In this document: positions 28,290 through 55,571 of the stretch, one piece after another
Layout of the letters: every line of letters begins with the position of its first letter
Position numbering within the stretch: the stretch's first letter is position 1
Source: Thermoplasmata archaeon
GTDB taxonomy: Archaea; Thermoplasmatota; Thermoplasmata; Lutacidiplasmatales; UBA184
Assembly (NCBI GenBank): GCA_021819135.1
Contig: JAKASE010000002.1
Coordinates: 1-64,000, forward strand
Direction: 5' to 3'
DNA: 64,000 nt
Notes under the pieces: model-generated
The model's database searches: none
What the model was told of the DNA's origin: nothing
What the model saw: the letters and a program-made list of their open reading frames with translations, nothing else
Program-made: the position numbers and the translations under genes

Positions 28290-31085
28290 CTACGAGCAGC
28301 CGCTCGTCGAGCCGCAGACCGTGCACGCGTAGCACGTGCCCGATCGTACCATGATCCCGCCGCAGACCGCGCACGACGGCGCGTCCTCGCTGGAGGAGCC
28401 GGCCGACGGGAGCTCCGGGAGGAAGGCGTCCAGCGCCTTCGTCTCGAACTTGACGGTCTGGCTGGCGGCGGCCGCCGGCTTCGCCGGGGCCGCGGGCGCG
28501 ACGCCGTGGCCGTTGCCGTTCCCCTCGGCGGGGGCCTCGAGCCCGATCGCCCGGCGCTCGTCCTCGGTCAGGAACTCGAGCGCGAGCCAGCGCGCGACGT
28601 AGTCCGGGATCGACTTCGCGAACCGGATCTTCGGGTTGTTGGTCGCCCCCGCCGGTTCGAAGCGGAGGTGGGCCAGCTTCCGCACGAGGTCCTTGAGCGG
28701 CACCCCGTGCTGGAGCGCCATCGACATCGAGATCCCGAGCGAGTCCATGAGGCCGTTCACGGTCGACCCCTCCTTTGTCACCCGGAAGAACACCTCGCCC
28801 GGGCGACCGTCGGGGTAGAGCCCGACCGTCACGTAGCCGTCGTGGCCGCCGACCGAGAAGTGGTGGGTGATCGCTTTGCGCTCGTCAGGTAGGCGCTCGC
28901 GGGCCGGTCCGCGGGGGCCGACAGGGGCGGTCGAGCGGCCCTTGCCGGTCTCGAACGGCTGGGAGGCCTTGCAGCCATCCCGGTAGAGGGCGACCGACTT
29001 AATCCCGAGCTTCCACGCCTCGAGGTAGATCTTCTCGATGTCCTCGACCGTCGCGTCGTTCGGCAGGTTGATCGTCTTCGAGGCGCCGCCCGAGAGGAAC
29101 GGCTGGACCGCGCCGAGCATCTTCAGGTGTCCCATCGGGGCGATCGTGCGGGTCCCCCCGGGGGGAGCGAGCGCGCAGTCGAAGACCGGGAGATCCTCCG
29201 GGTCGAGATCGGGCGCCCCCTCGATGGTGCCGGTCTTCTCGAGGTGCTCGGTGATCGCCTTGATCTCGGCGGCCGAGTAGCCGAGCGCGGCGAGGCCGTC
29301 CGGGACCGTGCGGTTGATCATCCGCAGGACCCCACCGCCCACGAGGTTCTTGATCTTCACGAGCGAGAGCTCGGGCTCGAGGCCGAGCGTGTCGCATCCC
29401 ATCAAGAGACCGATCGTCCCGGTCGGCGCGATGACCGATACCTGCGCGTTGCGGTACCCCCACAGCTCCCCGGCCTTCACCGTGTCGTGCCAGCGGTCGG
29501 CCGACGCCCGGACGAGCGCGGTCAGGCGGGGGTCGTTGAGCGCGATCGTCTCTGCCGCCTTCGCGTGCTTGCCCATCACGCGGAGCATCGGTGCCCGGTT
29601 CTTCTCGAACCCGGCGAACGGGCCCATGCGCTTCGCGATCTCGCTCGACATGTGGTAGCCCTCGGCCGAGAGGAACGCCGAGAGGGCCCCGGCGAGGGTG
29701 CGTCCCGCGTCGGAATCGTAGGCGAGCCCGTAGTGCATGAGGAGCGCGCCGAGGTTCGCGTAGCCGAGCCCGAGCGGCCGGTAGTCGTGGGAGTTCTGGG
29801 CGATCGCCGCGGTCGGGTAGCTCGACGCGTCGACGATGATCTCCATCGCGAGGGTCATCGTGCGGACCGACTGACGGAAGAACTCGAAGTCGAACTGGCC
29901 CTTGGCGTCCAGGAACTTCATCAGGTTGATCGACGCGAGGTTGCACGCGGAGTCGTCGAGGAAGAGATACTCGCTGCAGGGGTTCGACGCGTTGATCCGC
30001 GCGGTGTTCGGACAGGTGTGCCAGTCGTTCGTCGTGTCGTCGAACTGGACGCCCGGGTCACCGCAGCGCCAGGCGGCGTAGGCGAGCTTACGCCAGAGCT
30101 CGCGGGCGGGGTACGTCCCCCCGACCGAGTGGTCGGTGCGGTTGTACGTCTTCCATTCCTTGTCCCGCACGACCGCGTCCATGAACGAGTCCGGGATCCG
30201 GACCGAGTGGTTCGCGTTCTGGTAGGCGATCGACGCGTAGGCGGAGTCGGGGTCGGTCCCGTCGAAGTTCGACGAGTACCCCTCGCGGATCAACGCGAGC
30301 GCCTTGTCCTCCTCGCGGACCTTGCAATCGATGAAGTCGATGACGTCGGGGTGGTCCATGTTGAGGATCACCATCTTCGCGGCGCGTCGGGTCGTTCCCC
30401 CGGACTTGATCACGCCGGCGAGCGCGTCGAACGCCCGCATGAACGACACCGGGCCCGAGGCGATCCCTCCGCCGGCGAGCCGCTCTCGGCTCCCGCGGAG
30501 CGGTGAGAGGTTCGTGCCGGTCCCGCTGCCGCCCTTGAAGAGGCGTCCCTCGCTGGTGGCGAGGTGGAGGATCGAGTCCATGTCGTCGGTGATCGACTGA
30601 ATGAAGCAGGCCGAGCACTGCGGCGGGTCCCGGACACCGACATTGAACCAGACGGGGCTGTTGAACGCCGCCATCTGCTGGACCATGAGGTAGGAGAGGC
30701 TCTCCTCGAGCGTGGTCGCCTCGTCGGCGGTGTCGAGGTAGCCGAGCTCGAGCCCGCGCTCGGCGATCCAGTGGCAGACCCGACGGATCATCCCGTCGAC
30801 CGAGCTCTCGCGGCGGCCCTGGACGATGCGGAAGTACTTCGACGCGGCGATGTTGACGCTCGTCTCCGACCAGGTGGTCGGGGCGCGGATCCCCTTCTGC
30901 TCGAAGATCACCTTGCCTTCGGCGTTCTTGATGAGGGCGTCGTGGCTCCTCCACGACACGGTGTCGAGGGCGGTCTTGCCGCGGGGGACCAGGCGGGGGA
31001 CAGGAATCGGTTCGCGCCCGATCCGGCCCGGCTTCGAGGCCGGCTCTTCCGCCGCGGGCGCCGCACGTTTCTTGGCAATAGCCAT
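28290..31085 (-). CDS. nrdJ: Adenosylcobalamin-dependent ribonucleotide reductase (class II)
   Basis: 931 aa. Class II features: SLSYLMVQQMAAFNSPVWFN, VRDPPQCSACFIQSI with the first redox Cys, the active-site NPCSEYLFLDDSACNLASIN with the catalytic Cys/Glu pair, and IAPTGTIGLLMG. The C-terminus has a zinc ribbon (CAVCG...CYACTVCGSTSGCS) that ends in the mobile redox cysteines delivering electrons from thioredoxin. It reduces all four ribonucleotides using B12 radicals. ATG 31085 is preceded by AGGAG at a good distance. A TATA-like CCTTATACT lies about 200 nt upstream, which would give an unusually long leader. Confidence 0.95.
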   Translation of the reverse strand: MAIAKKRAAPAAEEPASKPGRIGREPIPVPRLVPRGKTALDTVSWRSHDALIKNAEGKVIFEQKGIRAPTTWSETSVNIAASKYFRIVQGRRESSVDGMIRRVCHWIAERGLELGYLDTADEATTLEESLSYLMVQQMAAFNSPVWFNVGVRDPPQCSACFIQSITDDMDSILHLATSEGRLFKGGSGTGTNLSPLRGSRERLAGGGIASGPVSFMRAFDALAGVIKSGGTTRRAAKMVILNMDHPDVIDFIDCKVREEDKALALIREGYSSNFDGTDPDSAYASIAYQNANHSVRIPDSFMDAVVRDKEWKTYNRTDHSVGGTYPARELWRKLAYAAWRCGDPGVQFDDTTNDWHTCPNTARINASNPCSEYLFLDDSACNLASINLMKFLDAKGQFDFEFFRQSVRTMTLAMEIIVDASSYPTAAIAQNSHDYRPLGLGYANLGALLMHYGLAYDSDAGRTLAGALSAFLSAEGYHMSSEIAKRMGPFAGFEKNRAPMLRVMGKHAKAAETIALNDPRLTALVRASADRWHDTVKAGELWGYRNAQVSVIAPTGTIGLLMGCDTLGLEPELSLVKIKNLVGGGVLRMINRTVPDGLAALGYSAAEIKAITEHLEKTGTIEGAPDLDPEDLPVFDCALAPPGGTRTIAPMGHLKMLGAVQPFLSGGASKTINLPNDATVEDIEKIYLEAWKLGIKSVALYRDGCKASQPFETGKGRSTAPVGPRGPARERLPDERKAITHHFSVGGHDGYVTVGLYPDGRPGEVFFRVTKEGSTVNGLMDSLGISMSMALQHGVPLKDLVRKLAHLRFEPAGATNNPKIRFAKSIPDYVARWLALEFLTEDERRAIGLEAPAEGNGNGHGVAPAAPAKPAAAASQTVKFETKALDAFLPELPSAGSSSEDAPSCAVCGGIMVRSGTCYACTVCGSTSGCS

Positions 31086-31443
31086 CGGGATTGCTCCTGG
31101 GAGGGATCGAAACGGATCCTTCGAGCCAACCGTACCACGTCGCGAGCCTCTATGGCCGTCTCGGCCGGCCGCTGAAACGCCCTCGGAAAGGGACCGTTTC
31201 TCGCCGGATGAGGTCGGACAAGGACGCGCGTGGTGCCGCTCGGGACACCGCGAGAACCCTCCGCGGGCCGCCCTACCGTGAGCCAGTATAAGGTTGCTCG
31301 GGTCGACGCCACGCCGAAATGTGCCGACGCGCGTCGTCCGAAGCGCTCGGGCCATTACTGAGTCTCGCGATTGCGCGTCGACCGCGACCGGATCGCGTCC
31401 GTCGCGCGACCGAAGCGGACGCACCGGGGGCGACGGTGCCCGG
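31086..31443 (-). promoter_or_regulatory. Long nrdJ upstream region with a distant TATA box
   Basis: No gene is supported here. A minus-strand TATA-like CCTTATACT is at 31285-31293; if used, the nrdJ leader is about 175 nt. The leader contains short self-complementary segments such as GGATC...GATCC (31104-31119 region). The consensus B12-riboswitch box was looked for by eye and not seen. A weaker element near 31148-31156 could give a shorter leader. Confidence 0.35.
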
Positions 31444-46384: not shown

Positions 46385-46469
46385 TGTGCCCGGGAGCGGA
46401 CCCGTGCGTCGGACATCCACCGTTCTCCACGTCGAGCGAAGTCATACCACGCCGGGGAATCCAGGGAAC

Positions 46470-47996
46470 ATGTCCGGAGCCAAGGCGGGGGCCCGCCCGC
46501 GGCGTGGGGGACGCCGGCCGCGACGCCCTCCCGTTCCCGCGGCTCGCTCCGGGGACCGGGCGCGGACCGAGGCCGGTGCGCTCCTCCGTGACCTCACGTC
46601 TCCCTTCGCCTCCGATCGCCGCCGGGCCGCCCACCAGCTGGCCCGCTTCCCCCGATCCGCGGTCCGGATCGCGCTCGAACGGTCGCTCGGGGACCCGGAT
46701 GCCGGCGTACGCCTCGCGGCCTCGTCGTCGTTGGGGTCGATCGGCGACCCGCGGGCCCGTCCGGCGCTCGAGGGACTCCTCGCGGACGTCCACTGGAACG
46801 TGCGGGCCCAGGCAGCGTACGCGCTCTCGCGTACCCCTCACCCGAGCTCCGTGCCGCTCCTGGTCGATCACCTCGCGCACGACGAGAGCGCGCTCGTGCG
46901 CAACGCGTGCGCGCTCACCCTCACCCACATCGGCGACCCGCGGGCGGCGCCCGCGCTCGAGCGGGCGCTCACGGACGAGTCCGACCGTGTCCGGCGGGAA
47001 GCGGTCCTCGGTCTCGAGCGCTCGGGAGGTCCCGAGGTACCGGCCCGGATCCGCCCGCTCCTCGCCGATCCCGCCCGACGGGTCCGCATCGCGGCGGCGA
47101 TGGTCCTCGGCGCCCGTCGGGACCGTGAGGCGACCCCCCTTCTCCTGGATCGGTTGCGTCGGGCCGACCCGTGGGAGCGTCCCGCGCTCCTGGTCGCGCT
47201 CGGACGGATCGGCGCGCCCGAAAGCGTCGAGGCACTCGCCCGGGCCGCGGAGGACCCGATGCACTCGGTGCGGGTCTGCGCGATCCACGCCCTCGGGGAG
47301 ATGCGGTCGCCTCGGGCACTCGAGGTCGCCGCCGCCAAGCTCTCCGACCGCTCCTGGGCGGTGCGGGGCGCGGCGGCGCTCGCGATCGGTAAGGCCGGCC
47401 GCCGTTCGGACGCCCCGGTCGTCGTCCCGCTCCTCCGAGACCCGCATCCCTGGCCACGACGGGGGGCGATCTATGCCTTGGGCGAGCTCCGGGCCGAGGC
47501 CGCTCGGGCGGAGCTCCGTCGGGCCCTCGACGACGAGGACCCCGAGGTGAGGCTGGCGGCGATCTGGGCGTTGGGGCGTCTCGCCGACCTCGAAGCCCGA
47601 CCCCGCCTCGAGGAAGAGCTCCGGCATCTCGAGGCGGCCCCGTCGGTGCCCGGGTCGACCGTGGCTCGCGGAGAGGGAGCGGTCCGGCTCGTTTCGGACG
47701 CGGAGTCCCGGCTCTTCGACACGCTCGTCGAGGCGCTCGGCGCGCTTCAGGCCCGGACCCCGGAGATTTCGACGGCCCGTCTCCTGGTCCGTGCCGCCCG
47801 CCGTCTGACCGACGAGGAGTGGTCCCGGCCGGCCCGGTTGCCGGCCCCGGTCGGGGGCGGGACTCCGGGGGGCAGCCGCCGCGAGCTCTTCGCGCGGATC
47901 GGGATCGTGCGGCCCCGTCCGACCCCCGAGGACAAGTCAGGCCGAGTGTACAAAGGTTTTAGAACCGTAAGTCCACGGACCCCCGGGGACGCATAG
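46470..47996 (+). CDS. HEAT-repeat protein, copy 1
   Basis: 508 aa. After a basic leader (AGARPRRGGRRPRRPP), about ten HEAT/PBS-lyase-type repeats follow, each with a D-x-x-x-x-VR-x-x-A pattern (for example DPDAGVRLAASSSLGSIGD). No catalytic motif. Repeats of this kind scaffold protein complexes. ATG 46470 is chosen because GTCATACC is 25 nt upstream. Colinear with the protein at 54066-55571: both share VRVCAIHALGEMR, DPHPWPRR and a closing RLPAP/RLPMP. A glycosyltransferase follows after 19 nt. Confidence 0.85.
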   Translation: MSGAKAGARPRRGGRRPRRPPVPAARSGDRARTEAGALLRDLTSPFASDRRRAAHQLARFPRSAVRIALERSLGDPDAGVRLAASSSLGSIGDPRARPALEGLLADVHWNVRAQAAYALSRTPHPSSVPLLVDHLAHDESALVRNACALTLTHIGDPRAAPALERALTDESDRVRREAVLGLERSGGPEVPARIRPLLADPARRVRIAAAMVLGARRDREATPLLLDRLRRADPWERPALLVALGRIGAPESVEALARAAEDPMHSVRVCAIHALGEMRSPRALEVAAAKLSDRSWAVRGAAALAIGKAGRRSDAPVVVPLLRDPHPWPRRGAIYALGELRAEAARAELRRALDDEDPEVRLAAIWALGRLADLEARPRLEEELRHLEAAPSVPGSTVARGEGAVRLVSDAESRLFDTLVEALGALQARTPEISTARLLVRAARRLTDEEWSRPARLPAPVGGGTPGGSRRELFARIGIVRPRPTPEDKSGRVYKGFRTVSPRTPGDA

Positions 47997-49373: not shown

Positions 49374-50162
49374 GTGAGCGACGTCCTCCTCGGCACCAGC
49401 GGCTGGGACTACCCGGAGTGGGTCGGCCGGGTCTACCCGCCGCGCGGGGTCACCGACCGGCTCCGCTACTACACGAAGCTCTTCCCGATCGTCGAGGTCA
49501 ACTCGACGTTCTACCGGCTCCCGCCCCCGTCCGTCACCGCGTCGTGGGTCCGGCGGACCCCCGCGAAGTTCCGGTTCGCGGCGAAGTTCCCGCAGACGAT
49601 CACGCACGACCTGCGGCTCGTGGGGACCGACGAGGAGCTCGCGCGGTTCCTCGCGGTCCTCAAGCCGATCCGTGACGGGGGGAAGTTCGTGGCCGCGCTC
49701 CTCCAGCTGCCGCCGTCGCTCCCGTTCGAGGCCGCGACCGTGCGGCACTTCTACGAGTCGCTGCCCCGGGACCTCCCCGTGGCGGTCGAGTTCCGCGAAC
49801 GCTCCTGGCTGGTCCCCGAGTCGTACGCGCTCCTCCGAGAGTTCGGGCTCTCCCACGCGATCGTCGACGGGCCCCACCTCCCGATCGCCCTCGAGGTGAC
49901 CGGGCCGTTCGCCTACGTGCGCTGGCACGGGCACGGGAGCCCGCTCTGGTACGACTACACCTACTCGTCCCCCGAGCTCCTCGCCTGGGTCCCCCGGCTC
50001 CGCACGCTCACCGAGCACGTCGCGACCGTCTACGGGTTCTTCAACAACCACTTCCGGGGCGACGCCGCCGTGAACTGCCGGACCCTCTCGGAAGAGCTCG
50101 GCCTTCCCGCCCCGCCGGGGAGCGGACGCCTCGACACCTCCCCTCCTCTCCGGGACCCCTAG
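49374..50162 (+). CDS. DUF72 family protein
   Basis: 262 aa TIM-barrel-like DUF72. LLGTSGWDYPEWVGRVYPP opens it; YTKLFPIVEVNSTFYRLP, FAAKFPQTITHD, VAVEFRERSW and FNNHFRGDAAVNC follow in family order. Biochemical role is unknown, though repair or nucleic-acid processing has been suggested for the family. GTG 49374 follows a TTTAA element at 49336-49340 that lies inside the dyad CCGGCCGG-CTTTAA-CCGGCCGG. Confidence 0.9.
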   Translation: MSDVLLGTSGWDYPEWVGRVYPPRGVTDRLRYYTKLFPIVEVNSTFYRLPPPSVTASWVRRTPAKFRFAAKFPQTITHDLRLVGTDEELARFLAVLKPIRDGGKFVAALLQLPPSLPFEAATVRHFYESLPRDLPVAVEFRERSWLVPESYALLREFGLSHAIVDGPHLPIALEVTGPFAYVRWHGHGSPLWYDYTYSSPELLAWVPRLRTLTEHVATVYGFFNNHFRGDAAVNCRTLSEELGLPAPPGSGRLDTSPPLRDP

Positions 50163-50225
50163 GAACGCTCCGTTCCCGGCCCGTTTCATCGTCCCCCGAA
50201 CCGCCGCTTTAGAGCCGTCCCCGCG

Positions 50226-51125
50226 ATGGATCCGACGGAGGTCCGGAGTACGCTCTCGCTCGAGGCCGAACCGTTCGCCCGGCCGTTCCCGGCGGAGGAG
50301 GATACCCCGTACGCGCCGTCCGTTCCGGAGGGAGCCGGGCCGCGGTCCATCGCGTTCCCGACCCGGATCCGCCTCTCGCACCGCCCCCGACGGACCCGGA
50401 CCGCCCCGGTCCTTCCCTCGGAGCCGGCGCTGTTCCCCTGGCTCGCCCGGCGCCTGGCGCCCGGGGAGGCGACGCTCTGGTGCGGCCCCGGCGCGGCCGT
50501 CGAGCCGATCCTCGAGCTCCTCTACGCGGGGAACGCCGTCGCCCGCGGACGGATCTCGCTCCTCGAGGGGGCGAACCGGTTCGATCCGTACCGCATCGGC
50601 GAGCTCGGCCGCGCCTTCGGGGTCGACGCGACCCGGACGCTCGAGGGGATCCGGCTCGCGCGGGCGTTCACCGCCTACCAGATGGTCGCGCTCGTCGACG
50701 GCTGGGCCCGGGAAGCGAAGCGGCACCGGCCGACGCTCCTCGTCGGCCACGACCTGCCGGCGCTCTTCACCGCGGACGCGGTCCCTCCCGAGGAGCGGAC
50801 CGCGCTGCTCGGGCACATGGCCCGGACGCTGGGCGCGCTCCTATGCGAGGTCCCGGCCCCGCTCCTCCTCACGCTCGGACCCGGCGGGTTCTCCGGGTTC
50901 CCCGGTCTCGCGGAGGCGGGACCCCGCTGGGCGGACCTCGTCACCTTCGCCCGGGGACCCGGCACCCTCCGGTTGCGCGCGATGCGGGATGACGCCCGCC
51001 TTTCCCTCGTGCCGCGGCCCGCCGGCCAGACCGGGATCGAGGAGTTCGGCGGAGGCTCCGCCGAGGAGGTGATCGCGTGGGACGCACTGCCCCGACCTAC
51101 CGCCAGGCGCTCGAGGAGCGGATGA
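50226..51125 (+). CDS. Degenerate RecA-like protein of the PolB2 cassette
   Basis: 299 aa. The core resembles a RecA/KaiC ATPase without a working P-loop: TLWCGPGAAVEPILELLYAG replaces GxxxxGKT, then RISLLEGANRFDPYRIGE takes the Walker-B-side strand, followed by LARAFTAYQMVALVDGW. The N-terminal 60 residues are Pro-rich. ATG 50226 has no convincing TATA at leaderless distance, so the start is less certain. Its stop overlaps the next ATG. By analogy with bacterial ImuA, a degenerate RecA partner of an error-prone polymerase is a reasonable hypothesis. Confidence 0.72.
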   Translation: MDPTEVRSTLSLEAEPFARPFPAEEDTPYAPSVPEGAGPRSIAFPTRIRLSHRPRRTRTAPVLPSEPALFPWLARRLAPGEATLWCGPGAAVEPILELLYAGNAVARGRISLLEGANRFDPYRIGELGRAFGVDATRTLEGIRLARAFTAYQMVALVDGWAREAKRHRPTLLVGHDLPALFTADAVPPEERTALLGHMARTLGALLCEVPAPLLLTLGPGGFSGFPGLAEAGPRWADLVTFARGPGTLRLRAMRDDARLSLVPRPAGQTGIEEFGGGSAEEVIAWDALPRPTARRSRSG

Positions 51126-51331
51126 AGCGCTGGGACGAGTTCGCCCGCCTCCTCACGACGCCCGAGGAGCGCGAGGCGTTCGAGCTCGTCCGCACCGGGG
51201 CCCGCCGCTACGCCGCCCAGGCGACGTACGTCGGGAGCCCCGACCTCCTCGAGTCGATCCTGCTCTCGGTCCTCACCGACCTCGCCGCGCGGATCCGCTC
51301 CGCGCCCGGCGAGCCCCGCGCGCGTCCGTAG
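51122..51331 (+). CDS. Small helical protein between RecA-like and PolB2 genes
   Basis: 69 aa from ATG 51122, which overlaps the RecA-like stop (ATGA) and is preceded by GAGGAG; an alternative GTG at 51077 would add 15 residues. Almost all helix: WDEFARLLTTPEEREAFELV and SPDLLESILLSVLTDLA. No Cys, no clear helix-turn-helix. Ten bases separate it from the polymerase gene. Likely an adaptor in the same complex; family not recognised. Confidence 0.68.
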   Translation: MKRWDEFARLLTTPEEREAFELVRTGARRYAAQATYVGSPDLLESILLSVLTDLAARIRSAPGEPRARP

Positions 51332-51341
51332 CGCCGGAGCG

Positions 51342-53678
51342 ATGGCCCCGTTCCCCGACGGCTGGCTGCTCGACGTCACTGAGAGCGACGACGGACGGTC
51401 GGTCGTCCTCTGGGTGAAGTCCCGACGGACCGGCCGGGTCCGCCGCACCGCGGTCGAGTACCGGCCCCCGTTCCGGGTCACCGGGCCGCGCACCGAGCTC
51501 GCCCCGCTCGCGCGGTACCTCGGGGATCGGCCGGAGGTCGAAACGGTCACGCTCGGCTCCGGGCGTCCCTCGCTCTTCGATCGCCGGCCCCGCCCGATGC
51601 TCACGGTGACGCCGGCGCGCCTTCCGGCCCGACGGGCCCTCGCCCGGGCGGTCGACGCCTTCGGCGGGTACACCGCGTTCACCCTCTACGACGTCGACCT
51701 CGGCGCGCCGCAGCTCTACCACCTCACCCATGGCCTCTACCCCTTCGCCCCGGTCGTCGGCGCCGGCGCGGCGCTCGTCGCGACCGAGCCGCCCGAGACG
51801 ATCGACTACGCGACGCCCCCACTCCGCGTCGCCCGGCTCGAGGTCCGCATCGCCGGCGAGCGGCGGGGCCGGATCCCGCCGCCGGACGGACGGATCGGCG
51901 CGGTGCGCCTCGGGGACGTGACACTCGAGGGACCCGACGAGGCGGACCTGTTGCGGGCCCTCGTCGGCGAGCTCGCCGCGAGCGACCCGGATGTCCTGCT
52001 CACGCAGGGCGGGGACTCGTTCGACCTCCCCTGGCTCTACCGGCGCGCGGCGGCGTGCGGGATCGCGCCGGGGGAGTTCGCGCTCGGCCGCGAGCGGGCC
52101 GGCTTCCGCCCGACCCGGCCCGCCCGCACGTTCGAGTCGTACGGCCGGGTCCTCCACCGCGACGCGACGTTCCCCCTCCCCGGCCGGTTCCACATCGACC
52201 GGGAGAACTCGTTCCTCTACGACGACGCCGAGATCGCCGGGCTCGTCGACGCCGCCCGCCTCTCGCGCCTGTCCCTCCAGACGGTCGTCCGCCAGTCGCC
52301 GGGGACCTGCTTCACCGCGATGGAGATGGCGCACGCGCTCGCCCTCGGCGCGCACGTGCCGTGGAAGAAGAACCGCCCCGAGGGGTTCCGCCGGGGCGAC
52401 CGCCTGGTCGCCGCCGACCGGGGGGGCGTCATCTTCCTCCCGCCGGTCGGCGTGCACGACCGCGTCGACGAGTTCGACTTCGCGAGCCTCTACCCGCACA
52501 TCATGGTCCGCAAGAACCTCTCCGCGGAGACGCTCGAGTGCCGCTGTTGCCCGCGGACCCCGATCCGCGCTCCCGGCCTCGGCTACCGCTCGTGCGTCCG
52601 GCGGGTCGGCCTCATCCCCCGGACGCTCGCCCCGCTCCTCGCCCGTCGCCTCGCCTACAAGGCGGCGCTGAGGCAGCCGGGGATCTCGCCCGAGGAGGCC
52701 TCCCGCCTCACGCGCCGGGTGCGGATGCTGAAATGGATCCTCGTCACGGCGTTCGGGTACCAGGGGTACCGGAACGCGCGGTTCGGCCGGATCGAGTGCC
52801 ACGAGGCGATCAACGCCTACGCGCGCGACCTCCTCGCCTCGCTGATCCCCGTGGCGGAGCGGAGCGGCTACGCGGTCCTCCACGGGATCGTCGACTCGCT
52901 CTGGGTCCGCCCGGCGGACCCGCTCCGTCCGCCGGATCCCGAGGCGTTCGCGCGGGCGGTGACCGAGCGCTTCGACCTGCCGCTCGGCTACGAGGGCCGG
53001 TACCGCTGGATCGTGTTCCTCCCGGCGGTGACGCACGGGCTCGGCGTCCCGAACCGGTACTACGGGCTCTACGAGGACGGCGAGTTCAAGCTGCGCGGGA
53101 TCGGCGGTCGCCGCCATGACACGACCGGGCTCGTTCGGCGGTTCGAGAGCGAGGTCCTCTCGCTCTTCCGGCGAGCCCGGGACGCGGCCGGGGTGCACGC
53201 GCTCCTCCCGCGGGCGCTCGCTCGCGCCGACCTCATCGCCGCGCGCGTCGCCGCCGGCGACTGGCCGGTCGACGAGCTCCTCGTCCGCCACCGCGTCGGC
53301 CAGGACCCCGACGCGTTCGTCACGTTCACCGACTCGGTCGCGGCCCTCCGCCAGCTGGCCGAGGCCGGAGCCCGACGCGGCGCGGGGGAGTCGGTGCGGT
53401 TCGTCCTCCTCGACCGGGAGAGCCGCTCGTTCCGCCATCGGGTACGGGTCGCGGAGCTCCTCACCGGGGAGGAGCGGTACGACCGGGAGGCCTACCTCGA
53501 CCTCCTCGCACGGGACACGGAGACGCTCCTCGCCCCGCTCGGAGTGGAGCGGACCGCGCTCCTCGAGCGATGGGGGGTGGGGCCCGCACCCCCCCGCGGA
53601 CCGTACCGCTCCCCCGAGACGGCCGCCCAGTCGACCCTCGACGGCGCGCCCCGACCAGGGCCGCGCGCGCCAGCGTAG
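51342..53678 (+). CDS. Family B DNA polymerase, PolB2/Dpo2-like
   Basis: 778 aa. Motif A is DFASLYPHIM (Asp379), motif B keeps Lys464 and FGYQGYRN (471-478) but has lost the usual Asn, motif C is HGIVDSLWV: the first Asp of DTD is Ile516 while the metal-binding second Asp (518) remains. So polymerase activity may survive. The exonuclease domain looks inactive: RLEVRI stands where D-x-E is expected, though GGDSFDLPWL keeps one Asp. PolB2 proteins differ from replicative PolB and are linked to damage tolerance in Sulfolobus (from memory). PolD is presumably the replicase here. Confidence 0.85.
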   Translation: MAPFPDGWLLDVTESDDGRSVVLWVKSRRTGRVRRTAVEYRPPFRVTGPRTELAPLARYLGDRPEVETVTLGSGRPSLFDRRPRPMLTVTPARLPARRALARAVDAFGGYTAFTLYDVDLGAPQLYHLTHGLYPFAPVVGAGAALVATEPPETIDYATPPLRVARLEVRIAGERRGRIPPPDGRIGAVRLGDVTLEGPDEADLLRALVGELAASDPDVLLTQGGDSFDLPWLYRRAAACGIAPGEFALGRERAGFRPTRPARTFESYGRVLHRDATFPLPGRFHIDRENSFLYDDAEIAGLVDAARLSRLSLQTVVRQSPGTCFTAMEMAHALALGAHVPWKKNRPEGFRRGDRLVAADRGGVIFLPPVGVHDRVDEFDFASLYPHIMVRKNLSAETLECRCCPRTPIRAPGLGYRSCVRRVGLIPRTLAPLLARRLAYKAALRQPGISPEEASRLTRRVRMLKWILVTAFGYQGYRNARFGRIECHEAINAYARDLLASLIPVAERSGYAVLHGIVDSLWVRPADPLRPPDPEAFARAVTERFDLPLGYEGRYRWIVFLPAVTHGLGVPNRYYGLYEDGEFKLRGIGGRRHDTTGLVRRFESEVLSLFRRARDAAGVHALLPRALARADLIAARVAAGDWPVDELLVRHRVGQDPDAFVTFTDSVAALRQLAEAGARRGAGESVRFVLLDRESRSFRHRVRVAELLTGEERYDREAYLDLLARDTETLLAPLGVERTALLERWGVGPAPPRGPYRSPETAAQSTLDGAPRPGPRAPA

Positions 53679-54065
53679 CCGCATTCCGGGCCCGTGTCGT
53701 CCGGACCCCGCGCTGGGCCTCCCCCGCGCCGCGAGACCCGGCAGTTCGCCCGGAAGGCCGTGCGCGTTCCATGCTCCCGTCCTCGAACCGGCAGGGCGCA
53801 AGATCCGGGTGCCCGGGTCGTTTGCCCGCATGCCGCCTCGCAGGGTGCCGTCCGCCGAGCGCGTGGGACCGGACCGGACCGGTCGCCGAGCTTCGCCGGT
53901 GACCGTAGCGGCGCCGCTTTCGCACGATCCGCGGGAAGGGATGCGCGGGGGGGCCGGTTCCGGTGGAGGGCACCGATCGGGCGGACGGAGGTCGCGGGGC
54001 GAGCGCCCGTCGCTTTCCCGCGGTGGTCCGTCGGTCCTTTTAGCTCAGGGGCCCGTCGACCCGGA
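53679..54065 (+). other. 387-bp gap without a supportable gene
   Basis: Open frames cross it on both strands, but their products are Arg/Pro/Gly-rich and resemble no protein. No tRNA, rRNA or snoRNA box was recognised. The right end holds the TATA CCTTTTAGCT (54036-54045) of the HEAT gene. It is less GC-biased at third positions in every frame than the flanking genes. Confidence 0.5.
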
Positions 54066-55571
54066 GTGCGCGCCCGTGTCCGAAGGCCGGGCCTTCACGA
54101 TCCGCCTCGGAGCCGGGCCCGGCCGAAACCCGATCCCTCTCCACCGCCCACGGCCTCCCAGCGCGCGGCGGCGATCCGGGAGAGCGTCGTCCCCGGGGCG
54201 GTGCCCGACCTGGGCTCGCTCCTCGTGGCGCTCAGCGACCCCGTCGCGGGCGTGCGCCAGACGGCCGCGATCGCGCTCGGTCTCCTGAAGGACCCCCGGG
54301 CCCGGACCACGCTCGCGCTCGTGCTCTCCGACCCGGACGCGGCGGTGCGCGCCTCGGCGGCCGAGGCGCTCGGGGCGATCGGCCGGCCCGAGAGCCGCCC
54401 GGACCTCGAGCGGGCGCTGGACGACGGCGACGAGAAGGTCCGGACGAACGCGGGGTACGCGCTCGCCTACCTCGGCGACGCGCGTTCGCTCCCCGGATTG
54501 CGGGCCCATCTCGAGGACGCCTCCCCCGCGGTCCGTCGGGCGATCGCGACGGCGCTTGGCTCGGTGGGGAACGACGATGCGGTCTTCCTCCTCCACCGAA
54601 TGCTCCGGGACCCGGTCGACCGGGTCCGTCGCGAGGCGGTCCTCGCGATCGGCCGCTCGGAGTCCGCGCGCGAGCTCGAGGTGCTGCGGGAGTCCCTGTG
54701 GGACCCCTCGCGGCGGGTGCGGGTCGCGGCGGCGATCGTGCTGGGGCGGCACCGCGACCGGGCCGCAGTCCCGCTGCTGCTCGAGCGGCTCCGCGGACCG
54801 GAGACCTGGGAGAAGCCGGCCGTCCTGGTCGCCCTCGGGCGGATCGGGGCGCGCGAGGCCATCCCCATGCTCGTCGACGCGGCCGGCCATCCCGCCCACT
54901 GGGTGCGCGTCTGCGCGATCCATGCCCTCGGGGAGATGCGGGCTCCCGAGGGCCTTGCGATCGCCCGGGCCCACCTCGACGACGAAGCCTGGCCGGTCCG
55001 CGGGGCGGCCGCCATGGCGCTCGGGGACGTCGGAAGCGCCGAGGATCTTCCCGCGCTCCTCAAGCACCTCGCCGACCCGCATCCGTGGCCCCGCCGCAGC
55101 GCGACCTACGCGCTGGGGTACCTCGGGCTCGCGGAGGCGGCGCCCCGCATCCGGGAAGAGCTCGCAGACCCGGCCGCCGAGGTCCGTCTGGCCGCGGTGT
55201 GGGCGCTCGGTCGCCTGCACGACGACGGGGCACGCGACGCGCTCGTCCGCATGCTCTACACGGTCGCCCCGGACGGGCCGGAGAGCTCCCGGGGCGGCGA
55301 GCCCACGGAAGAGGGGGCGGTCCCCTCGGACGCCGAGGTCCGCCTCTTCCCCGCGGTCATCCAGGCGCTCGGGCGAATCGGTCACGGCGAGGAACCGGAT
55401 CCGATCGTGCACCGGGCGTTGCTCGCGGCCCGGGAGCGCTTGAGCGACGAGGAGCTCGACCGGACCGCGCGTCTTCCGATGCCCGAGGTCACCGTCGACC
55501 ATCCCGCGCCGACGGTCCGTCGCCTGTTCGAGAGCATCCTCCCGAGCCTCTCGGAGGATGACGGCACGTGA
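54066..55571 (+). CDS. HEAT-repeat protein, copy 2
   Basis: 501 aa. A short basic leader precedes about ten HEAT repeats (for example DPDAAVRASAAEALGAIGR, DPVDRVRREAVLAIGRS). Same length and order as copy 1 at 46470. GTG 54066 is chosen over the frame's upstream start at 53694 because a TATA box lies 26 nt before it and the upstream stretch is not protein-like. Its stop overlaps the GNAT gene (GTGA), so the scaffold is co-translated with an acetyltransferase. Confidence 0.85.
   Translation: MRARVRRPGLHDPPRSRARPKPDPSPPPTASQRAAAIRESVVPGAVPDLGSLLVALSDPVAGVRQTAAIALGLLKDPRARTTLALVLSDPDAAVRASAAEALGAIGRPESRPDLERALDDGDEKVRTNAGYALAYLGDARSLPGLRAHLEDASPAVRRAIATALGSVGNDDAVFLLHRMLRDPVDRVRREAVLAIGRSESARELEVLRESLWDPSRRVRVAAAIVLGRHRDRAAVPLLLERLRGPETWEKPAVLVALGRIGAREAIPMLVDAAGHPAHWVRVCAIHALGEMRAPEGLAIARAHLDDEAWPVRGAAAMALGDVGSAEDLPALLKHLADPHPWPRRSATYALGYLGLAEAAPRIREELADPAAEVRLAAVWALGRLHDDGARDALVRMLYTVAPDGPESSRGGEPTEEGAVPSDAEVRLFPAVIQALGRIGHGEEPDPIVHRALLAARERLSDEELDRTARLPMPEVTVDHPAPTVRRLFESILPSLSEDDGT

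Follow-up and report, generated by a model that had tools for sequence, protein, structure and literature searches.

Three adjacent genes in a Thermoplasmata archaeon raise the question of what a RecA-like protein without a P-loop, a small protein and a family B DNA polymerase with altered motifs do together. The window analysed here is the 64,000-nucleotide (nt) stretch at positions 1 to 64,000 of contig JAKASE010000002.1 (GCA_021819135.1), which has a GC content of 0.72 (72%), and the genes lie at 50226-53678. The initial annotation, made from the sequence alone, put the trio forward as a candidate archaeal mutasome. The trio is instead the already described PolB2 mutasome operon, iRadA-PPB2-PolB2. 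An operon of PolB2, arCOG07300 and inactivated RadA was described in 2014 by Makarova et al. (PMC4104785), and Timinskas et al. in 2025 (PMC11791011) named PPB2 and iRadA and modelled the 'PolB2 mutasome' complex PolB2-iRadA-(PPB2)3. The part most worth following lies just upstream of these genes, where a dyad, an operator candidate, is shared with a ribonucleotide reductase (RNR) gene; we did not meet such a shared operator in published accounts of the PolB2 operon. We consider it very probable that the locus is a PolB2 mutasome operon under this RNR-shared dyad, with damage-induced translesion extension as its likely function. The genes of the operon are as follows:

50226-51125, + strand: iRadA gene, 299 amino acids
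51077-51331, + strand: PPB2 gene (arCOG07300 family), 84 amino acids, GTG start, MGRT N-terminal arm
51342-53678, + strand: PolB2 gene, family B DNA polymerase, 778 amino acids

Every feature of the PolB2 mutasome that is open to a sequence or fold test was found in the window. The iRadA, PPB2 and PolB2 genes are adjacent and run in one direction at 50226-53678, the RadA homologue lacks both the ATPase residues and the N-terminal helical domain, and PPB2 has the MGRT arm. Furthermore, the first motif C aspartate of PolB2 is substituted, its exonuclease is decayed, and a clamp-binding-like motif is present in iRadA. The trio is also conserved as a unit, as the initial annotation had anticipated. 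Among relatives (Thermoplasmata archaea of the Lutacidiplasmatales and allies, one of them named Ca. Lutacidiplasma), 73 loci had enough upstream sequence to be judged; iRadA and PPB2 were nearby in 69 of these, and the trio was contiguous in 63.

iRadA has a Rad51/RadA fold without a P-loop

RecA-like scoring of the first gene product had been set beforehand as a test that could overturn the initial annotation, and the protein passed it. iRadA scored 24.0 bits against Pfam Rad51 (cut-off 22), its family profile matched solved RadA with E=2e-12, and its predicted structure (predicted local distance difference test score 83 overall, ~97 in the core) matched Rad51, Dmc1 and RadA with E~1e-11 by Foldseek. 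Compared to congeneric RadA, Walker A has changed from GEFGxGKT to CGPGAAVEP and Walker B from VVDS to VGHD, and both motifs are lost in all 37 iRadA sequences compared. In the predicted structure there is no N-terminal helical domain; the core begins at about residue 60 and the N-terminus is disordered. Thus iRadA is a Rad51/RadA-fold protein without a P-loop, as first annotated. It is not the recombinase, because a true RadA is encoded by a separate gene that scores above cut-off in 31/34 congeners. For the same reason, and because most relatives have PolB3 and the assembly is 91% complete, we rejected the absence of RadA and PolB3 from this assembly as biology.

The tail of iRadA carries a motif resembling the PCNA-interacting peptide (PIP), about 32 residues from the C-terminus:

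51027-51050, + strand: PIP-like (clamp-binding-like) motif QTGIEEFG, iRadA residues 268-275, putatively clamp-binding

The pattern Q..[ILM]..[FYW] occurs in 61/65 iRadA tails, compared to 1.2% of shuffled tails. The PolB2 tail offers just QSTL (QxxL) and has no aromatic residues. A clamp motif in iRadA and not in PolB2 would fit the published rule that the motif resides in one of the two proteins and rarely in both (PMC11791011). Clamp motifs, the MGRT arm, the enrichment of DUF72 near polB2 and a comparison to Pol V are all in that paper; the near-invariant motif of the iRadA tail appears to be an addition to the published accounts that we found.

PolB2 motifs and an invariant cysteine cluster

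PolB2 belongs to the family B polymerases by both sequence and predicted fold; the type B polymerase models of NCBIfam span the entire protein with 401 bits, which is under their cut-offs. The altered motif C and broken exonuclease motif I reported in the initial annotation are both confirmed. Compared to PolB3 of the same lineage, the exonuclease I motif DIE is lost, the exonuclease II Asn is replaced by Gly, and motif C reads HGIVDS (residues 514-519) instead of SDTDS. Motif A retains Asp379, and motif B is KWILVTAFGYQG, with the signature KWILV(T/A/S)xFGYQG. In motif C, the motif B signature and the decayed exonuclease, the protein resembles haloarchaeal PolB2 and is unlike PolB3 of its own lineage. 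The initial annotation had also set this polymerase apart from a 'fully inactivated PolB2' on the strength of Asp379 and Asp518, the second motif C Asp. This contrast did not survive: both residues are kept in 30/30 aligned PolB2 sequences, where their retention is the normal state, and Sulfolobus islandicus Dpo2, with motif C IID of the same IxD form, is an active extender of mismatches and lesions that lacks proofreading (PMC8764526).

Four cysteines follow motif A, 21-39 residues after Asp379:

52539-52595, + strand: four-cysteine cluster of PolB2, C400-x-C402-C403-x14-C418

C400, C402, C403 and C418 are invariant in 30/30 aligned PolB2 sequences, down to 39% identity. All four are missing from PolB3 of the same lineage, and Haloarcula PolB2 has His in place of the third. 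A Cys to His swap is common among metal ligands. We hypothesize that the cluster beside motif A might be a metal (Zn or Fe-S) site. In the PolB2/Dpo2 papers that we consulted, a metal site at these cysteines is nowhere mentioned; for Dpo2, seven cysteines were noted and its authors proposed disulfides (PMC7390963).

PPB2 starts inside the iRadA gene

The layout first annotated was right for the outer open reading frames, 50226-51125 (299 amino acids) and 51342-53678 (778 amino acids), both on the + strand, and for the 10-nt gap between PPB2 and PolB2. It was wrong for the join of the first two genes, which had been drawn as an ATGA overlap leading into a 69-amino-acid middle gene from ATG 51122. 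In relatives, the PPB2 frame opens with (M/V/L)GRT in 74/74 cases, GRT being residues 2-4, with GTG (37), ATG (32) or TTG (5) as the start codon; M1, G2, R3, T4, P6, T7, Y8 and R9 are invariant. The corresponding start here is GTG 51077, which is preceded by a ribosome-binding site:

51065-51074, + strand: PPB2 Shine-Dalgarno GGAGGTGATC, inside the iRadA coding sequence and ending two bases before the GTG

This Shine-Dalgarno is a perfect 10 nt in 36/58 loci and keeps at least 8 of its 10 bases in 52/58. In contrast, ATG 51122 is PPB2 codon 16, a position where many relatives encode Leu. We therefore rejected the shorter form. Because the GRT start and the conserved Shine-Dalgarno place the start at GTG 51077, PPB2 has 84 residues, beginning MGRTAPTYRQAL, and overlaps iRadA by 49 nt. 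The codons of the PIP-like motif directly precede those that form the Shine-Dalgarno, and the overlap follows.

In 58 loci the overlap has the same 49-nt length; in genera further removed it measures 31 or 37 nt. Dual-coding selection was considered as a cause and rejected: codon entropy at conserved PPB2 positions was 0.83 inside the overlap versus 0.82 outside (p=0.50), so that conservation of PPB2 residues, which sets where the first stop falls, accounts for the constant overlap length better than selection on the iRadA tail. No frameshift signal in the overlap was apparent by eye. PPB2 is lengthened to 115-120 amino acids in loci L034, L036, L037, L040 and L046, where it overlaps the PolB2 start (gap -61 to -73 nt).

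A dyad shared with ribonucleotide reductase

An operator candidate and a TATA-like box sit between a DUF72 gene and iRadA, and the dyad recurs upstream of an RNR gene in the same window:

50162-50187, + strand: dyad operator candidate GGAACGCTCCGTTCCCGGCCCGTTTC, arms GGAACG and CGTTTC
50207-50214, + strand: TATA-like box CTTTAGAG, putative, by position
31174-31200, - strand: dyad GAAACGGTCCCTTTCCGAGGGCGTTTC, upstream of RNR
28290-31085, - strand: class II (B12-dependent) RNR, 931 amino acids, Pfam PF02867 (E=4e-134), PF08471 and PF12637; proposed co-regulated gene
49374-50162, + strand: DUF72 gene, a frequent but separable upstream neighbour

The module before iRadA, GRAACG-N13..16-YGTTTC(A) followed after 17-18 nt by CTT(T/A)AG, is present in 52/55 loci, and the TATA-like box lies 17-18 nt past the right arm in 50/53 relatives with the module. 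The right arm alone anchored the search, and the left, which was not required, was found in 45/46 non-redundant iRadA promoters versus 2.3% by shuffling. Some sister genera likewise have a dyad before iRadA. The module is also there in loci where DUF72 is 0.6-2 kb off, indicating that iRadA-PPB2-PolB2 is probably transcribed as a unit by itself.

Shuffling would place the dyad before RNR in 0.1% of cases; it stands there in 22/30 congeners, and in the majority of the remaining ones a degenerate form does. A looser dyad was found at 19 places in the host genome, one of them the site at 31174-31200, versus 3 for a reversed control, and a strict dyad at 31 sites versus 2 in eight good genomes; 13 of the 31 belong to RNR or PolB2, as judged by position. 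A wider regulon was rejected, since the remaining sites look scattered and are without TATA spacing. One perfect dyad, GAAACGCTTAGGGTGCCAGGCGTTTC, lies just upstream of a 149-amino-acid gene elsewhere in the host genome (L139, C21:3387-3412). This winged-helix-like gene (helix-turn-helix-like by eye) was dropped as the dyad regulator because it occurs in only 12/41 congeners and has no Pfam match. NrdR is the usual RNR regulator; it was rejected because it was not found in the genome, whereas the control search was positive in 9 bacteria. Many congeners have RNR on the contig of the PolB2 operon, within ~15-35 kb of it.

The shared dyad suggests common, probably damage-linked control of the PolB2 operon and class II RNR. 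A role in damage is plausible because class II nrdJ is among the consistently ultraviolet (UV)-induced genes of Halobacterium (PMC2556686). The Sulfolobales DNA damage response regulon uses a different element, ANTTTC, bound by Orc1-2 (PMC9738581). This element was not found upstream of iRadA, where the dyad GRAACG...YGTTTC stands and shares with it just a TTTC core. A bolder proposal, which we make tentatively and with doubt slightly uppermost, is that within this Thermoplasmata order one regulator acting on the dyad ~18 nt upstream of the TATA-like box might switch on just the PolB2 mutasome and class II RNR. Mutagenic lesion bypass would then be coupled to the supply of deoxynucleoside triphosphates (dNTPs), as a minimal SOS-like circuit of archaea, with PolB2 bearing a four-Cys metal (Zn or Fe-S) site.

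Comparison with known systems

The S. islandicus Dpo2 operon and its homologues share with this locus the three families in one of the described gene orders (iRadA-PPB2-PolB2), the MGRT arm, the lost P-loop, the IxD motif C, the dead exonuclease and DUF72 nearby. The present locus differs in its 72% GC host, in the 49-nt iRadA/PPB2 overlap, in the full PIP-like motif of nearly all iRadA tails and in the RNR-shared dyad, which replaces ANTTTC. Plasmid pNG600 of Haloarcula marismortui likewise encodes an iRadA-like protein, an MGRT PPB2 and a PolB2 with HGIVDS and C-x-C-(C/H)...C. However, that set is plasmid-borne, with an extra gene between PPB2 and PolB2 and orc1/cdc6 downstream, and lacks the 49-nt overlap. 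Escherichia coli Pol V (UmuD'2C-RecA) works alike, by combining a recombinase-fold partner, a small arm-bearing subunit and an error-prone polymerase (PMC11791011), but its polymerase is of the Y family, its RecA is active and its small subunit is unrelated, so it belongs to another family.

A model for the operon and its alternatives

Damage-inducible translesion extension synthesis is, in our view, the most likely function of the trio. The analysis itself shows the gene content and order, the motifs, the iRadA and PolB2 folds, the conservation and the shared operator. In this model, damage or fork stalling would lift or activate control at the dyad, transcription would begin at the operon's own promoter just upstream of iRadA, and iRadA, PPB2 and PolB2 would be made together with more RNR. 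PPB2 would be translated from its GTG by way of the strong Shine-Dalgarno inside the iRadA gene, and this placement probably yields the subunits in coupled amounts. Judging from the modelled complexes of its homologues, PolB2 would pair one to one with iRadA, at a contact like that of Rad51 oligomerisation, and would also hold a PPB2 trimer by the PPB2 MGRT arm. Through the iRadA tail the complex would attach to PCNA, and PolB2, without proofreading and with an altered metal site, would extend distorted primer ends opposite lesions after PolD stalls. Complex formation, clamp binding, damage induction and extension activity are thus steps that we infer. Several points weigh against the model. 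The evidence for mutagenesis and induction comes from the Sulfolobales, a distant phylum, in which Dpo2 is required for damage-targeted mutagenesis (PMC7390963); the Sulfolobales operator is different and asymmetric compared to the two-armed dyad here; and although the D(K/R) motif of PolB2 is present (D286-R287), just its Asp is invariant among relatives while the Lys/Arg varies.

Under the 2014 proposal, PolB2 would have no catalytic activity and the trio would act at origins or stalled forks as a complex with a structural or regulatory role (PMC4104785). In its favour, Ile or Leu takes the place of the first motif C Asp in all relatives, and the exonuclease has degenerated. Against it, Dpo2 of Sulfolobus carries this substitution too and is about equal to the replicase at extending primers (PMC8764526). 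In addition, 30 sequences show no variation at the motif A Asp, the second motif C Asp, Lys464 of motif B and Lys583-x-Arg-Gly, none of which a dead enzyme would need. We regard this proposal as improbable. Still more remote is a different system like bacterial ImuA-ImuB-DnaE2, in which gene 1 would descend from a bacterial ImuA/RecA. The two share a logic, in that a RecA-fold protein that has degenerated accompanies an error-prone polymerase in a damage-tolerance cassette, but ImuA-ImuB-DnaE2 is bacterial, with a C-family polymerase and a Y-family-like ImuB, and no homology to it was found here: gene 1 matched Rad51/RadA/Dmc1 and never bacterial RecA or ImuA in all searches, the polymerase is of family B, and PPB2 has the archaeal MGRT signature.

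The alternative with the most weight concerns the dyad, which could serve a regulator that adjusts DNA synthesis genes routinely to growth phase or dNTP level, and not damage control. Its known targets are just PolB2 and RNR, and the strict dyad was not seen with any gene for recombination or excision repair. On the other hand, PolB2 is not a replicative enzyme, the class II RNR is UV-induced in Halobacterium as noted above, and NrdR was not found in the genome. We take this to be a serious possibility, albeit the less probable one.

A complete, conserved PolB2 mutasome is present in a GC-rich, PolD-bearing acid-soil lineage, beyond the low-GC crenarchaea where its mutagenic role is established. 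To our knowledge, no LexA-like logic for damage-induced mutagenesis has been established in euryarchaea. The RNR-shared operator offers a concrete, testable handle on such mutagenesis in archaea, and the PolB2 cysteine cluster and the iRadA clamp motif are specific targets for mutagenesis.

Distribution and neighbouring genes

A family B polymerase match was found in 104/106 genomes of the order, with PolB3 among the weak matches. DUF72 lies within 300 nt in 26/43 of the loci that hold it. PPB2 and PolB2 are split by inserts in L047 (3.4 kb), L061 (1.6 kb) and L075 (0.7 kb), and iRadA/PPB2 were not detected in L041, L057, L070 and L076 within the stretch available for each. An Rfam scan of 49-54 kb gave no match. 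The initial annotation placed its damage-tolerance module in a PolD-bearing, GC-rich euryarchaeon, which is supported by the GC content, the Thermoplasmata relatives and a PolD large subunit, DP2, encoded in the same window as the operon (1730-2542, + strand, open reading frame ~1181 amino acids). A Y-family polymerase is encoded elsewhere in the host genome. Two long HEAT-repeat proteins (46386-47996 and 53694-55571, + strand) flank the region, the second directly after PolB2.

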